Origin: Pseudovibrio sp. M1P-2-3
GTDB lineage: Bacteria; Pseudomonadota; Alphaproteobacteria; Rhizobiales; Stappiaceae
Assembly: GCF_031501865.1 (NCBI RefSeq)
Contig: NZ_JARRCW010000001.1
Coordinates: 4,168,001 to 4,232,000 of the forward strand
DNA length: 64,000 nt
Direction of reading: 5' to 3'
In this document: piece after piece, positions 31,109-57,036 of the stretch
Position numbering within the stretch: the first letter of the stretch is position 1
Layout: each line of letters begins with the position of its first letter
Notes under the pieces: model-generated
Told to the model about the DNA's origin: nothing
The model's input: the letters and a program-made list of their open reading frames with translations, nothing else
The model's database searches: none
Made by a program: the position numbers and the translations under genes

Positions 31109-31310
31109 TGTTTAGTCCCGCGAGGAGATGGAAACAGTTTAACATTGACTTCATCCTTTCGGGAGGAATTATGGGACAGGTATTACACGCCAGCGCACGA
31201 CTACTCACGCAGTTCGATCAGCCATCCAAAAATCGGATGCTACAATCAACGAGTTGCGCCTGCTCTTTAACGTCAATCCGAAAACGGAGATGAAGAGGAA
31301 ACTGGACTTA
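31109..31310 (+). mobile_element. IS481-family remnant (left end only)
   Basis: Starts with TGTTTAGTCCCGCGAGGAGA and reads into MGQVLHASA-like codons, clearly the same element as the three 1047-base copies in this window. It is frameshifted and breaks off near 31310, just before the IS1111 element. Confidence 0.75.
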
Positions 31311-31350
31311 CCCCGTAAAAGTGGAGGCACTTCTTCTGTGGTTGCCGCCC

Positions 31351-31615
31351 GTAATGCAAGAAGTTTTTCCTGTTCAGACAAGTGATCGAGTGCAGTCTTC
31401 TGTCAGGCCTTTGTTTGCAGCACTTCCAAAAGCTGCTGGCCGGTATGGTGATCTGCGGAACGTTTCCAAATCTGTTAAGCGAGCTGTTATACTCTTAGAA
31501 GTGCACTGGTTTTCACGGTCCGGATCTGTTCGATCATTTTGCCCATTCAGGTCATCGGCTTCTTACACTTCCCGTCAAGCGCCGCTGGCGATTGGCATGA
31601 TGTGCACTAAGCACA
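31351..31615 (-). ncRNA. Candidate guide (bridge/seek) RNA region of IS1111 element E1
   Basis: 265 noncoding bases between the transposase stop and the left subterminal repeat. The segment is recognisably conserved with 54418-54662 in the diverged element E2: shared blocks include CTGTCAGGCCT, GGCCGGTATGG, a GACTGGTT/CACTGGTT block and TCGATC. IS1111-group elements are known to make a guide RNA from this position. The RNA itself is inferred. Confidence 0.55.
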
Positions 31616-32641
31616 TTATGCAGCCTTCAGCGACGGGTCTCTGAAGGTTTCCTTTTTTGTTACCATTGCCCAGATCTGTCGTGCCATCTTATTGGCTAGT
31701 GCAATCGCCACCAGCAACCTTGGCTTGCGTGCTGCCAGTCGAGCGAGCCAGGAGCCTTGCTTGATTGACTTACGCCCCAACCAGTTCAGCCGCGACATTG
31801 CCCCAACGATGAGAAGGCGCCGTATGTCGGCTTGCCCAGCTTTAGAGACACGACCTAATCGTTCCTTACCCCCTGATGAGAACTGGCGGGGCACCAACCC
31901 CAACCAGGCCGCAAAGTCTCGACCACACCGAAAAGACTTCATATCAGGAGCAAAGCTTTCCACCGCAAGAGCAGTTATTGGACCAATCCCCGGCATCGTC
32001 TGCAGACGACGTGAAGTCTCTGTACGCGCCGCCAGTTGCTTTGCCTTTTGCGTTTTGGCCTCAATCCGCTTTGTTTTTTCTTCGATCTGTACAAGCAGAT
32101 CATGGCATTCCTCGCTCACGCAGGCGGGAAGACGACACCCCTCATCTTCAAGGAGCGCCTTAATGTGCTTGATCTGACCGATCCCCGTGGTAACGATATG
32201 ACCGAATTCATAAAGAACGGCTCTAAGCGCATTCACAAGCTCTGTGCGCTGATGAACCAAGCGTTCGCGCGCACGGAACAGGACCGCTCTGGCCTGCTGT
32301 TGTTCCGTCTTGGGCTCGACAAAACGCATTTCTGGGCGTTGTGCCGCAATTACAATCGCTTCGGCATCATTGACGTCATTCTTCTGACGTTTGACAAAGG
32401 GCTTAACATAGCGCGGGGCAATCAACTTCACCTGATGGCCCAACGTGCTTAATTCGCGCGCCCACCAAGAAGCGCTCCCGCAGGCTTCCATCACAACAAC
32501 AGCCGGTTCTTGCCTGTCCATAAACTTGAGAAACTGACTTCTTGCCAATTTCTTACGAAACAGCAATTCTCCATTCATTAAAGTCCCGTGAAGGCAAAAG
32601 ACATTCTTTGCCAGGTCCACGCCAATCATAATGGTCTTCAT
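31616..32641 (-). CDS. IS1111-group DEDD transposase
   Basis: 341 residues. The N-terminal RuvC-like DEDD domain shows Asp in MIGVDLAKNVFCLHG, Glu in VVMEACGSASWW, and the Asp pair in QKNDVNDAEAIVIAA. The C-terminal Tnp domain holds PGIGPITALAVESFAPD, FAAWLGLVPRQFSSGG with the nucleophilic Ser region. The frame is intact. Confidence 0.9.
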   Translation of the reverse strand: MKTIMIGVDLAKNVFCLHGTLMNGELLFRKKLARSQFLKFMDRQEPAVVVMEACGSASWWARELSTLGHQVKLIAPRYVKPFVKRQKNDVNDAEAIVIAAQRPEMRFVEPKTEQQQARAVLFRARERLVHQRTELVNALRAVLYEFGHIVTTGIGQIKHIKALLEDEGCRLPACVSEECHDLLVQIEEKTKRIEAKTQKAKQLAARTETSRRLQTMPGIGPITALAVESFAPDMKSFRCGRDFAAWLGLVPRQFSSGGKERLGRVSKAGQADIRRLLIVGAMSRLNWLGRKSIKQGSWLARLAARKPRLLVAIALANKMARQIWAMVTKKETFRDPSLKAA

Positions 32642-32875
32642 ATTGCTGTCCTCTCTGCTTGGATCTTAAAGATCGTCATCCTGACACATTGCAATGTCGT
32701 CTGGGGAGGGCGGCAACCATCCCATCTGTTAAAGTAGCAACAGGAGGGTCGCATGAAGCGATAGGGGCAAAAGAATTATACAGATGAGTTCAAACCGGAA
32801 GCTGTACGTTTGGTAGTGAGTAGTGGACGAAAGGTTGCAGAGATTGCCGACGAGCTTGGTGTCCCACGCTCTACG

Positions 32876-33865
32876 TTAGATGTTTAGTCCCACAAGGAGA
32901 TGGTCTGGTTGTTTTATGAACCTACCGGGCTCTTTTGTCCATTGTTTGGTGATGTACTCAAAGGGCGTTTGTCCTTTGAGAGCCTTGAGGCGCTTGGCAA
33001 AGTTATAAGCCTGTATGAACGTTTCCAGATGAGTGCGGAGTTCGCTGTGTGTCTGGTAATAATAGCGCCGGACAGAGGCCTCTTTGAGGGTGCGGTTCAT
33101 GCGTTCGACCTGACCATTCGTCCAGGGGTGAGCTGGTTTTGTTAGCTGATGATCGATATGGTTTTGGGCGCAAGCCAGAACAAAGCCATGGCAGCGAAAT
33201 GGCTGGTCAGTAGCGAGCATATGCGTAATGTCCTTAGCGTTCCAGCTGTCGCCTTTGGGATCGGTAAAATGGGTGCCCTTGTATGTCAGAACGGTGTGGA
33301 TTTTATAGGGGACTGCCTTGATGAGGCTACGTAGGAAGTCTCCAGCAACCCTTCTGGTCGCTTTTTCATGCAGCTGCACAAAGGTAAATTTAGATGTGCG
33401 ATCAATGGCCACAAACAGATACAGTTTGCCTTCTGCAGTTCGTACTTCCGCGATATCAATGTGAAAATAGCCGATCGGATAAGCTTTGAAACGTTTCTTA
33501 TCCTTATCCTTATCTGGAGCTGGAAGACGCGAGATTGCGTGACGCTGGAATAGACGGTGGAGGGATGAGCGGGTCAACTTCGGGATCGTTTCCTGCAGAG
33601 CATAAAGGCAGTCATCAAGCGCTAACAAAGAGTGCTTGCGAAAAGCGACACATGCAGCCTCTTCCGCCAGAGTAAGGACTGTAGAGCGTGGATTTTCCCG
33701 TCCCGTGGGTTGATCTTCTACGCTGGTCCGTTTCTTCCACTTCATCACCGTTTTAGGGTTGATGTTATAACGGATGCTTAATTCCTTGATTGTAGCATCC
33801 GATTTTTGGATGGCCGATCGAACCGCGTGAGTAGTCGTGGCGCTACCGTGTAATACCTGTCCCAT
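32876..33865 (-). CDS. IS481-family transposase, catalytic Asp replaced
   Basis: 329 residues with N-terminal HTH (IKELSIRYNINPKTVMKWKKR) and an rve integrase core. First Asp in YFHIDIAEVRTAEGKLY and the terminal Glu in NGQVERMNRTLKEA are present. The second Asp, expected in LTDNGTQF as in copy C, is replaced in LTYKGTHF. The protein is therefore probably unable to catalyse strand transfer. Identical change in copy B. The stop codon extends just past the terminal repeat. Confidence 0.85.
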   Translation of the reverse strand: MGQVLHGSATTTHAVRSAIQKSDATIKELSIRYNINPKTVMKWKKRTSVEDQPTGRENPRSTVLTLAEEAACVAFRKHSLLALDDCLYALQETIPKLTRSSLHRLFQRHAISRLPAPDKDKDKKRFKAYPIGYFHIDIAEVRTAEGKLYLFVAIDRTSKFTFVQLHEKATRRVAGDFLRSLIKAVPYKIHTVLTYKGTHFTDPKGDSWNAKDITHMLATDQPFRCHGFVLACAQNHIDHQLTKPAHPWTNGQVERMNRTLKEASVRRYYYQTHSELRTHLETFIQAYNFAKRLKALKGQTPFEYITKQWTKEPGRFIKQPDHLLVGLNI

Positions 33866-54378: not shown

Positions 54379-54417
54379 TTGATAACGTACAATATTTTTC
54401 GCATCTGTGGATGCCCC

Positions 54418-54662
54418 GTGTTTTGCAAGTTGTTTTTCGAGCAATTTTGGCATGTGATCGGTTGCGGTCATCTGTCAGGCCTCGTTGTGCGGCGCTGCAT
54501 TTGCCGCGGGCCGGTATGGAGATACGCAACTTGGCTCCAATACACATTTGCGGGCTTTTTGCCCGGTGCGAAAGACTGGTTATGCCAAGTCGGATCTAGT
54601 CGATCGTTTACCCTTACTGCTCAAAGCCCTCCTCACATCCCGACGGACCTGTCCTGAAGCAC
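54418..54662 (-). ncRNA. Candidate guide (bridge/seek) RNA region of IS1111 element E2
   Basis: 245 noncoding bases after the transposase stop, conserved with the corresponding region of E1 although the two transposases are clearly diverged. It includes a hairpin CGGGC-TTTTT-GCCCG at 54552-54566, on the strand opposite the predicted transcript the loop is A-rich. Transcription is inferred. Confidence 0.55.
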
Positions 54663-55688
54663 CTATTTAGCCGGGGACAGGTTTCGGTAGTCTTCATCTT
54701 TGACCAACATAGCCCACAATCTACGAGCCATTTTGTTTGCAAGCGCGATAGCCACCACCATACTTGGTTTTCTTTCAAGCATTCTTCCAAGCCATAAGCT
54801 TTCTGGCCTCCCCGTCCGCCGGGCAGCACCAATGAGTGCCATAGCTCCGATGATCAAAAGCCTTCGGATATCGCGCTGGCCCATTTTCGAGGTTCGGCCC
54901 AAGATCTGCCTTCCCCCTGTTGAATATTGTTTTGGCACAAGCCCCAGCCATGCGGCAAAGTCCCGCCCTCGGCGGAACGTGCTCATTGATGGGGCAAATG
55001 CTGTAACCGCCATGGCCGTTATCGGCCCTATTCCGGGCATGGTTTGCAATCTTTGCGCAGCCTTGTCCTGGTTCGCTTCTATTCGAAGCTGCTTTTCCAG
55101 GGACTGGATCCGGTTTGTGAGCAGTGCAATTTGCTCCAGGTAGATCTGACCGAGTTGAAGCACCACAGGAGGCAGGTCACTGTTCGGAGCATTCAAAGCC
55201 TCAGCCAGTTTCTTAACGTGTATCGCCTTTCTTGGTGCGAGGCAGCCAAACTCAGCCAAATGAGCTCTCAAGGCGTTGATCAACTGAGTACGTTGACGCA
55301 CAAAAAGATCGCGGCTACGGAATAACACGGCGCGACTTTGCTGATCCTTTGATTTTATCGGAACCGTACGCATTGTGGGGCGCGACGCTGCTTCCGCAAT
55401 GGCTTCCGCGTCAGCTGCATCGTTTTTTTGACGTTTTACAAATGGTTTCACATAGATTGGGGGAATCAATTTAACATCATGCCCCAGAGCGCGAATTTCT
55501 CGCCCCCAACTATGGGCAGTAGCGCAAGCTTCCATTGCCACAACACAAGGTTCTTGTTTGGCAAAGAACGGTAACATCTGCCCGCGTGACAATTTCCGTC
55601 GAAATAAAACCTTGCCGTCTGGTGCCGCACCATGAGCTTGAAAACTGTGCTTTGCCAAATCTAAACCTATAATGCTAACCTCTGCCAT
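54663..55688 (-). CDS. IS1111-group DEDD transposase
   Basis: 341 residues from ATG 55688 (MAEVSIIGLDLAKHSFQAHG). DEDD set: LDLAKHSF, VVAMEACATAHSW, QKNDAADAEAIAEAA; C-terminal PGIGPITAMAVTAFAPS and WLGLVPKQYSTGGRQILGRTSKMG. Intact, but clearly different in sequence from the E1 protein. Confidence 0.9.
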   Translation of the reverse strand: MAEVSIIGLDLAKHSFQAHGAAPDGKVLFRRKLSRGQMLPFFAKQEPCVVAMEACATAHSWGREIRALGHDVKLIPPIYVKPFVKRQKNDAADAEAIAEAASRPTMRTVPIKSKDQQSRAVLFRSRDLFVRQRTQLINALRAHLAEFGCLAPRKAIHVKKLAEALNAPNSDLPPVVLQLGQIYLEQIALLTNRIQSLEKQLRIEANQDKAAQRLQTMPGIGPITAMAVTAFAPSMSTFRRGRDFAAWLGLVPKQYSTGGRQILGRTSKMGQRDIRRLLIIGAMALIGAARRTGRPESLWLGRMLERKPSMVVAIALANKMARRLWAMLVKDEDYRNLSPAK

Positions 55689-55821
55689 GGATGTCCCTTC
55701 CCAATCTTCGATTGCTTCAATCGTAAATATGGCACATTGCGATGCCGCCGGGTGGGGCATCCACTCCATCACATTTGCTTTTGAGTTCGGTTCCACTCAC
55801 ACTGGATGAGGGGATCAAATT

Positions 55822-57036
55822 ATGGATGAGAGTGATAAGCAGAAGGAATTGAACAACGTCATCCGCATTGATGAGGCGCGGATCAAGGACCATCTTGGCG
55901 AGATGGTGCGTGGCACGGTTGAAGAGGCCTTGAATGCGATGCTGGATGCGGAAGCCGACCAATTGTGCGGGGCTGGACGCTATGAGCGCTCTCTGCATAT
56001 CAAGGCAGGGCCGGTGAAACTGAAGATGCCGAAGCTGCGCAAGCAAGCCTTTGAGACGGCCATCATCGAGCGTTACCAGCGCCGGGAAAGCTCGGTAGAA
56101 GAAGCGCTTATCGAGATATATCTGGCCGGCGTCTCAGTACGCCGTGTAGAAGATATAACCGAGGCTCTGTGGGGCACGCGGGTGTCGCCAGGTACAGTAT
56201 CCAACCACAATAAGAAGATCTATGCCAAGATCGAGCAATGGTGCCAGCGCCCCATCGAGGGCAACCACCCTTACCTGTATCTGGACGGCATTGTGATGAA
56301 GCGCACTTGGGCTGGGGAAGTACGCAATGTTTCATTGCTGGTGGCTTCGGCTGTCAATTCAGAAGGATATCGCCAGATTCTCGGGATCAAAGAGGGGGCC
56401 AAGGAAGATAAGTCTGGCTGGTCGTCATTTCTACGCCATTTGATAGATCGCGGCCTTTCCGGTGTGCAATTAATCATTTCCGATGCCTGCCGTGGGTTGA
56501 TTGAAAGCATTGAAGAGTATTTGCCTGAGGCCCGCTGGCAGCGTTGTATGGTTCGCTCCAAGGGAAAACGATTCACTGGATCGTTTTCAGCTCCTTCTCG
56601 CTACCGTAATGTATTTTCTTAACTACCCTCCACCAAAGTACGGGAGGTGAGCCATATGCTCAAGGCGATCCATGCGTAGGAAAGCCATCAGGCGGCTCAG
56701 CAAAAAGCGGAGGCTGTCATCGCTGACCTACGTTCGCGGAAAATGACGAAAGCCGCAGAACTTATTGAAAACCACATTGGCGAGACGCTGAGCTTTTATG
56801 CCTTTCCTGACAGCCACTGGCGTAAGATCCGAACAAACAATCCACTGGAGCGTATCATGAAAGAAATTCGTCGCAGAACCCGGGTAGTTGGGGCGTTTCC
56901 AGACGGAAAGTCCTGCCTTAACCTAGCGGCCGCCAGATTAAGGCACATCGCTGGAACCACATAGGCCACAAAACGCTACATGAACATGAAGCCACTCTTC
57001 GAGGACACCGAAGATCAAACCGGAGCCGTTGCTTGA
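55822..57036 (+). pseudogene. IS256-family transposase with nonsense codons and an in-frame palindromic insert
   Basis: One continuous frame of 405 codons. IS256 features: RRESSVEEALIEIYLAGVSVR, first Asp in PYLYLDGIVMKRTW, second in VQLIISDACRGLIESI, and terminal Glu in NNPLERIMKEIRRR. In-frame TAA follows YRNVFS, TAG follows LKAIHA, and TAG replaces the Trp after IAGTT. About 42 extra bases sit in frame at 56552-56599. The right end GACACTACC ends at 57069; the left end is lost to E2. Confidence 0.8.

Follow-up and report, generated by a model that had tools for sequence, protein, structure and literature searches.

The data support the presence, in two IS1111-type elements of the window analysed here (a 64-kb stretch of DNA), of regions encoding a structured RNA whose variable slots match different targets. 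Read from their sequences, these elements, termed E1 and E2 (Table 1), very probably depend for their insertion on guidance by this two-part RNA. In each element, the region that follows the transposase gene would give rise to an RNA about 155 nt long, and this RNA would bind the transposase; its slots would direct E1 to an IS3-type end and E2 to an IS256-type end. In its second, multi-branched part, the RNA would pair with the donor bottom strand through a copy of the right-end heptamer and would perhaps carry a weaker guide for the left end. Exchange at the core would allow the transposase to join the element, as a circle, to the site so matched. For transcription, transposase binding, the circle and strand exchange, this proposal draws on published work. 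What E1 and E2 themselves provide is the structure, the match between guide and target, the match between guide and right end, an uninterrupted target of E1, and repeated insertion of E2 at one sequence. Throughout, we take HTH_Tnp_1, Transposase_mut and DDE_Tnp_IS240 to denote IS3-type, IS256-type and IS6-type elements, respectively.

Table 1. Coordinates, within the window, of E1, E2, their predicted RNAs and their target sites.
Feature	Position	Strand	Remarks
E1, IS1111-type element, left to right end	31333..32725	(-)	subterminal inverted repeat pair, equal cores, uninterrupted site known
E2, second IS1111-type element	54402..55769	(-)	core TG
E1 DEDD transposase, 341 aa	31616..32641	(-)	PF01548 E 9.2e-15, PF02371 E 1e-23
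E2 transposase, 341 aa	54663..55688	(-)	PF01548 and PF02371
Subterminal inverted repeat, E1 right end	31339..31350	(-)	12 bp, perfect
Subterminal inverted repeat, E1 left end	32708..32719	(-)	12 bp, perfect
Subterminal inverted repeat, E2 right end	54407..54417	(-)	11 bp, perfect; left end 55754-55764
Predicted E1 guide RNA, 157 nt (R1 span)	31380..31536	(-)	R1 142.6 bits, E1 among 61 model rows; covariation; fold z
Predicted E2 guide RNA	54452..54606	(-)	R1 144.9 bits, E2 also a model row
P1, outer stem of E1	3' arm 31383..31389, 5' arm 31530-31536	(-)	seven pairs in single fold, four in helix 1
P2, target-loop stem and loop of E1	31457..31521, arms 31514-31521 and 31457-31464	(-)	helix 2
P3, small hairpin within E1 target loop	31481..31494	(-)	helix 4
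P4/P5 hairpin, donor half of E1 RNA	31406..31443	(-)	helices 5 and 6
Predicted E1 right target guide	31497..31506	(-)	complementary to core and right flank AGAAGTGC; 8-nt match GCACTTCT
Predicted E1 left target guide TTAACAGAT	31470..31478	(-)	equals left flank and core
Predicted E2 right target guide, slot TTTCGCA	54567..54574	(-)	complement of right-flank TGCGAAA
Predicted E2 left target guide GCAAATGTG	54543..54551	(-)	same as left flank in 9/9 copies
Predicted E1 left donor guide ACAGAAG	31397..31403	(-)	identical to last seven right-end bases, 31333-31339
Predicted E2 left donor guide ACAGATG	54469..54475	(-)	identical to right end of E2
Putative right donor guide, E1	31444..31450	(-)	complementary to left-end ATGG; weak
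Tip of IS3-type element split by E1 (right target flank)	31303..31332		remainder from 32726; tip placed where L075 and L076 diverge
Left target flank, core copy and IS3-type orfA start with early TAG	32726..32880	(+)	next transposase gene at 32876
Tip of IS256-type element split by E2	54381..54401		remainder from 55770, Transposase_mut gene at 55822; tip placed by flank divergence

The extents of both elements differ from those given in the earlier note, where E1 (31340..32718) was too short and E2 was placed at 54400-55765; the bounds in Table 1 take in the extensions at the ends and, once, the two-base core, which in E1 is the AG at 31333-31334, within the right end. The two transposases are 53% identical, and both show the features of the IS1111 family, namely, PF01548 together with PF02371, a length of 330-350 aa and the motif GL-P----S(T)G (GLVPRQFSSG and GLVPKQYSTG in alignment A1). 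The ends are equally typical, with subterminal repeats of 12 bp (E1) and 11 bp (E2), where about 11-13 bp are expected, followed by short unequal extensions. Noncoding DNA beside the transposase gene, as in this family, amounts to 265 (E1) and 245 (E2) bases downstream and 66 and 65 bases upstream. Comparison of E1 with L075 and L076, and of nine E2 copies, shows a specific target, a single orientation and no duplication beyond the core. Since the family and guide-RNA features examined at the sequence level are present, with only the left-end donor match weak, E1 and E2 are classed with the known IS1111 guide RNAs. Their RNAs are IS1111 bridge RNAs (seekRNAs), of already published mechanism, and E1 and E2 are unusually clear natural examples.

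The earlier note had described the 265 bases between the E1 transposase stop and the subterminal repeat (31351-31615) as devoid of ORFs, similar to the corresponding region of E2, and flanked by DNA that does not align. The stretch is present as described, and it aligns with E2 positions 54420-54662 with a local score of 58, as compared with a mean of 17.9 and a maximum of 30 in 1000 dinucleotide shuffles; the 400-base flanks of the two elements do not align, their scores of 19 and 18 being equalled by 143/300 and 226/300 shuffles. The lack of ORFs is not literally so, since a 107-aa ORF that begins with GTG lies antisense to the E1 segment and spans it (31321-31644, + strand). Rfam gave no match at gathering score within the 64-kb window, so the RNA of E1 and E2 is not recognised by this database, and our RNA model, termed R1, when searched in the same window at E values up to 1, found both RNAs and nothing more.

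Relatives of the elements were gathered in two ways. First, contigs were searched with a profile from an alignment of five transposases of the host genome, and the best 80 of 534 confirmed loci were retained. Second, the E1 protein was compared with 397 genomes of the same order, 61 of which had matches with E 1e-60 or better, and 30 loci were taken. Ends were sought in 132 element sequences, being defined in 115 and in none of the other 17. These relatives share a constant order: the left target, which includes the core, is followed by ATGNNN, the left repeat, the transposase and the RNA region, and then come the right repeat, four bases, the core and the right target. Left and right cores were equal in 95 of the 115, a count that is biased because core equality was the tie-break in choosing ends. 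Most of the 20 unequal cases look like wrong or missing right ends. In three, L078 (AG/GG), L146 (TG/AG) and C_L052 (TG/CG), the ends look right and the two cores are unequal, as expected if target and donor had each contributed one of them. For the guide tests we kept 93 elements (at least 9/10 repeat matches, equal cores, length 1330-1430, E1 counted once), which reduce to 79 distinct RNAs and these to 75 distinct slot pairs. Two R1 RNAs (150.9 and 66.3 bits) lie about 1.4 kb apart at L095, in neighbouring IS1111-type elements of different groups, and the entry of this locus in the guide tests is the neighbouring second element.

Covariance modelling of the E1 and E2 region with its homologues, as proposed in the earlier note, yielded a common fold backed by covariation in 61 sequences. 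The underlying alignment, A2, holds 61 of the 79 RNAs, E1 and E2 included, after 18 had been excluded by eye, namely, the near-duplicates L026, L027 and L056 and 15 diverged RNAs. RNAalifold returned 26 pairs, 19 of them with two-sided changes, and two pairs were added by hand to give a structure of 28 pairs in six helices. Over the 61 sequences, 96.8% of the cells of this fold are paired, as compared with 90.3% in shuffles and 24.8-44.5% in slid versions of the structure. Two-sided changes occur at 19/28 pairs and in 117 cells, versus 27.6 cells in shuffles and 11-33 in the slid controls, and none of 500 shuffles scored as high as the real fold on any of five measures. Taken singly, E1 and E2 also fold better than their shuffles, with z scores of -3.37 (0/200 as low) and -3.27 (1/200). 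Furthermore, R1 matched all 32 fetched loci outside the model, with a best match for each between E 1e-38 and 3e-11; these comprise the 15 diverged RNAs excluded from A2, every one of which was matched, and 17 loci without defined ends, and as all are relatives the result speaks to generality and not to independence.

The helices are not equally well documented. In P2, each of the eight pairs shows two-sided changes somewhere among the 61 sequences. P4 hardly varies, so covariation is no test of it, and the minimum-energy single folds of E1 and E2 contain P1, P2 and P3 with P4/P5 replaced by other pairs, which means that the donor half derives from the alignment. P2 of E1 has two non-standard positions, C:U and G:A; together with its single copy, this indicates that E1 may be ageing. 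The covariation also bears on the idea that the segment is conserved solely as end DNA to which the transposase binds, its fold and matches being by-products of shared ancestry. The E1 and E2 regions are indeed homologous and adjoin the element end; however, DNA binding predicts neither the two-sided changes that keep the pairs nor slots that follow each element's own insertion site instead of the sites of its relatives. Contradicted on both counts, this idea is in our judgement extremely improbable, and we continue with a structured guide RNA as the preferred reading.

The slots of this RNA were compared with the insertion sites of the elements. The 5' slot of E1, GTGCACTTCT, complements the right flank of the element, and the target sequences as a whole are TTTAACAGAAGTGCC for E1 and GCAAATGTGCGAAA for E2. 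In both RNAs the complement of the top strand lies 5' of the complement of the bottom strand, with gaps of 18 nt (E1) and 15 nt (E2). With anchored slots, 735 of 900 non-core letters of the 75 distinct guide pairs match their own flanks, where the best of 20,000 re-pairings reached 531, and the own site is best or tied-best in 55/75. A scan of the whole region without anchors (N=79) gave an own total of 1078, as compared with at most 894 after re-pairing; the best single hits fall in the expected order in 54/79, and the own site outscores all others in only 19/79. Poor one-sided matches were seen at the right of L108 and L130 and the left of L093 in the anchored test, and at the left of E3_L027 in the unanchored one. 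Among the 30 sequences with AG in the RNA, E1 included, mean pairwise identity is 32% and 29% in the two guide slots and 79% in the remaining RNA, which suggests that the body of the RNA is kept while its address changes. The DNA cores among the 79 are TG (39), AG (30), CG (9) and GG (1). The proposal that E1 and E2 encode two related guide RNAs, whose variable stretches specify different targets, thus agrees with the common fold and with slots that match the flanks of each. As 75 distinct guide pairs fit their own sites far better than re-paired ones, these elements provide a natural test, on a large scale, of the IS1111 guide rule.

E1 lies within an IS3-type element, 30 bases in from its tip. 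The joined flanks of E1 align without gaps to two uninterrupted IS3-type ends, with 4 mismatches in 100 bases for L075 and 5 in 98 for L076; the homologous ORF of the L076 copy matches HTH_Tnp_1 with E 1.6e-13. A search for the E1 target pattern, allowing one mismatch at most, hit a single place in the genome, in the matching IS3-type end. Since by our own arithmetic about 0.4 such matches are expected by chance, it is this location, and not the count, that constitutes evidence. The early TAG in orfA and the end near the next transposase gene suggest that the IS3-type copy hosting E1 is seemingly decayed.

The genome has nine E2 copies, of which one is interrupted; all nine share the left target and the orientation. 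Their right flanks read CGAAAA in six copies and differ in L019, L020 and L022. Seven copies sit at one point of an IS256-type end, and these are all seven such ends found; the E2 site is absent from two further IS256-type fragments, a 28-base scrap (L073) and an internal piece (L072). A genome search for the uninterrupted E2 target, allowing one mismatch, gave two places, neither among the IS256-type matches, and did not yield an exact intact target for E2. The seven copies could have been carried along by IS256 instead of being inserted under guidance, and L017 and L018, which are identical over 700 flanking bases, would suit such a history. However, the eight uninterrupted copies differ by 0-2 of 1368 bases, whereas several hosts are mutually diverged: the adjoining 700 bases of L015, L017, L018, L019 and L023 are 84.6-100% identical pairwise, and identity is lower for L021 and L016 (the latter with a short host match). 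Moreover, L020 and L022 share the left target of the other copies but occupy different sites. Near-identical copies in diverged hosts make several separate insertions of E2 likely, with L017 and L018 as a pair that could have moved together; some co-movement may therefore remain, but as an account of all seven copies we find it quite improbable. E1 and E2 also illustrate that, within a single genome, two or more IS1111 groups have different kinds of insertion sequence as their targets, in each case at the ends.

With regard to the donor, the earlier note expected loops that pair both with the flanks and with the donor junctions. This was found for the two target slots and for the right-end heptamer, and only weakly for the left end. 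The heptamer in the RNA equals that of the right end in 74/79 elements, the five exceptions being L120 (in a non-core letter) and C_L051, C_L056, L145 and L186 (in the core). Over 77 distinct RNAs, 384/385 non-core letters agree, versus at most 324 in permutations, and over 19 distinct pairs 94/95 agree, versus at most 81. The left-end match (CCAT) scored 374 against a permutation maximum of 373, and with 32 distinct pairs 5/20,000 permutations reach the observed value. The match of RNA to right end argues that IS1111 RNAs also read the donor, which is less settled than the target half. In comparing these sequences, we hold it somewhat probable that IS1111 RNAs are two-sided guides, with a co-evolved right-end heptamer, the core represented in both parts, and natural retargeting largely limited to sites that carry the donor's own core. 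The core is AG in the nearer relatives of E1 and mostly TG or CG in the others.

This view competes with one in which the RNA reads the target only, as published for the seekRNA, the protein recognises the donor ends through the subterminal repeats, and the copy of the heptamer has another cause. An 82-nt seekRNA form suffices for movement of ISEc11, with only target matches described in the part of that report drawn on here (Siddiquee et al., 2024, PMC11187229), and the left-end donor guide is weak in our data. Nevertheless, the RNA heptamer tracks the right end through the 19 distinct pairs (94/95 non-core letters), and donor-binding nucleotides have been predicted in the multiloop of many IS1111 elements, according to the portion of the work consulted (Durrant et al., 2024, PMC11208160). 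We therefore regard target-only reading as rather unlikely. Should two-sided reading be true, the published 82-nt seekRNA would correspond mainly to the target-reading half of the RNA made in nature. The match to the right end is relevant to the difference between seekRNA and bridge RNA accounts of IS1111, and singles out the seven bases on which this difference turns. Another feature of the right end is a TTGC within 20-32 bases of it in 72/79 elements; the best sigma70-like -10 starts where it would cross the circle junction in 54/79. Since the best promoter pair of E1 scores only 6/12, a circle-junction promoter is not claimed for this element.

Comparison with known systems, as described in the parts of the two reports used here, shows the following. 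First, like the seekRNA elements ISEc11, ISKpn4, ISPst6 and ISPa11, E1 and E2 have a downstream noncoding region, subterminal repeats of 11-13 bp and a DEDD transposase of about 340 aa; they also share the top-strand complement 5' of the bottom-strand complement, with no target bases added. At full length (about 155 nt), the RNA is similar in size to the long seekRNA form of 145-170 nt, and the P2 hairpin, of 65 nt, is near the short form of 70-100 nt. In contrast, the targets are IS3-type and IS256-type ends, and a donor-guide stretch is visible that is undescribed for the seekRNA in that part of the report (Siddiquee et al., 2024, PMC11187229). Second, the bridge RNA of IS621 and those predicted for IS1111 elements (Durrant et al., 2024, PMC11208160) resemble the E1 and E2 RNAs in having a target part distinct from the donor part, guides for left and right, and a core dinucleotide in common; yet the order of the guides is reversed relative to IS621, and in E1 and E2 the candidate right donor guide is a short stretch from which the core is absent. 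Third, other IS110/IS1111-type elements are likewise aimed at mobile elements, namely, IS4321/IS5075 at Tn21-type terminal repeats (cited in PMC11208160) and ISEc21 at codons of IS3-family transposases (PMC11187229), targets that differ from the IS3-type and IS256-type ends used by E1 and E2.

The host genome, of 4.96 Mb, has 38 matches to the DEDD_Tnp_IS110 family, and R1 lists at least 34 places in it, 150 of 795 first-look candidates having been scored. Of the places away from a listed transposase match, two, C2:179399 and C2:149932, lie beside truncated transposases of 191 and 173 aa; the others inspected are C1:2064249, C1:2064450, C1:1593890, C1:3007063 and an E1-like remnant at C1:2988316. 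We considered these as possible mini-elements and take them to be remnants; a search for left ends, which covered family D with up to three mismatches, found one in 0/5 regions (L218-L222) and in the positive control L060. The 153 bases at G000:C1:2988366-2988518 are left over from a relative of E1, with 93% identity, and comprise the right-end side of the RNA region.

Two more IS1111 groups, families C and D (L051-L058, L060), have pieces of IS6-type transposases beside some of their copies. DDE_Tnp_IS240 was detected in three of five family C/D flank pieces, L056, L060 and L055 (below the curated cut-off), and in neither L053 nor L054. The right guides of these families, TTTGCGACA and GGCATTG, look to us like IS6 terminal repeats, and some family C and D copies probably target IS6-type ends. 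In a broader but weak test of neighbours, transposase-type Pfam families showed no clear excess near the elements of the relatives, occurring both among ORFs no more than 200 nt distant and among those at 1.5-3 kb (94/131 near and 83/83 far ORFs covered, with 25/38 and 25/104 families among the matches listed). At L219 (about G000:C1:2063300-2064600) two family C RNA regions face each other around an ORF that, by eye, is IS6-transposase-like, and the second of them is cut by a family D RNA remnant, that is, the insertions are nested. At L031 (G000:C1:2972012-2972037), 26 bases similar to the left end of E2 stand alone, with no full element matched there. The most frequent DEDD transposase of the genome belongs to a different group, with 11 copies (L032-L042) and an open frame of 329 aa.
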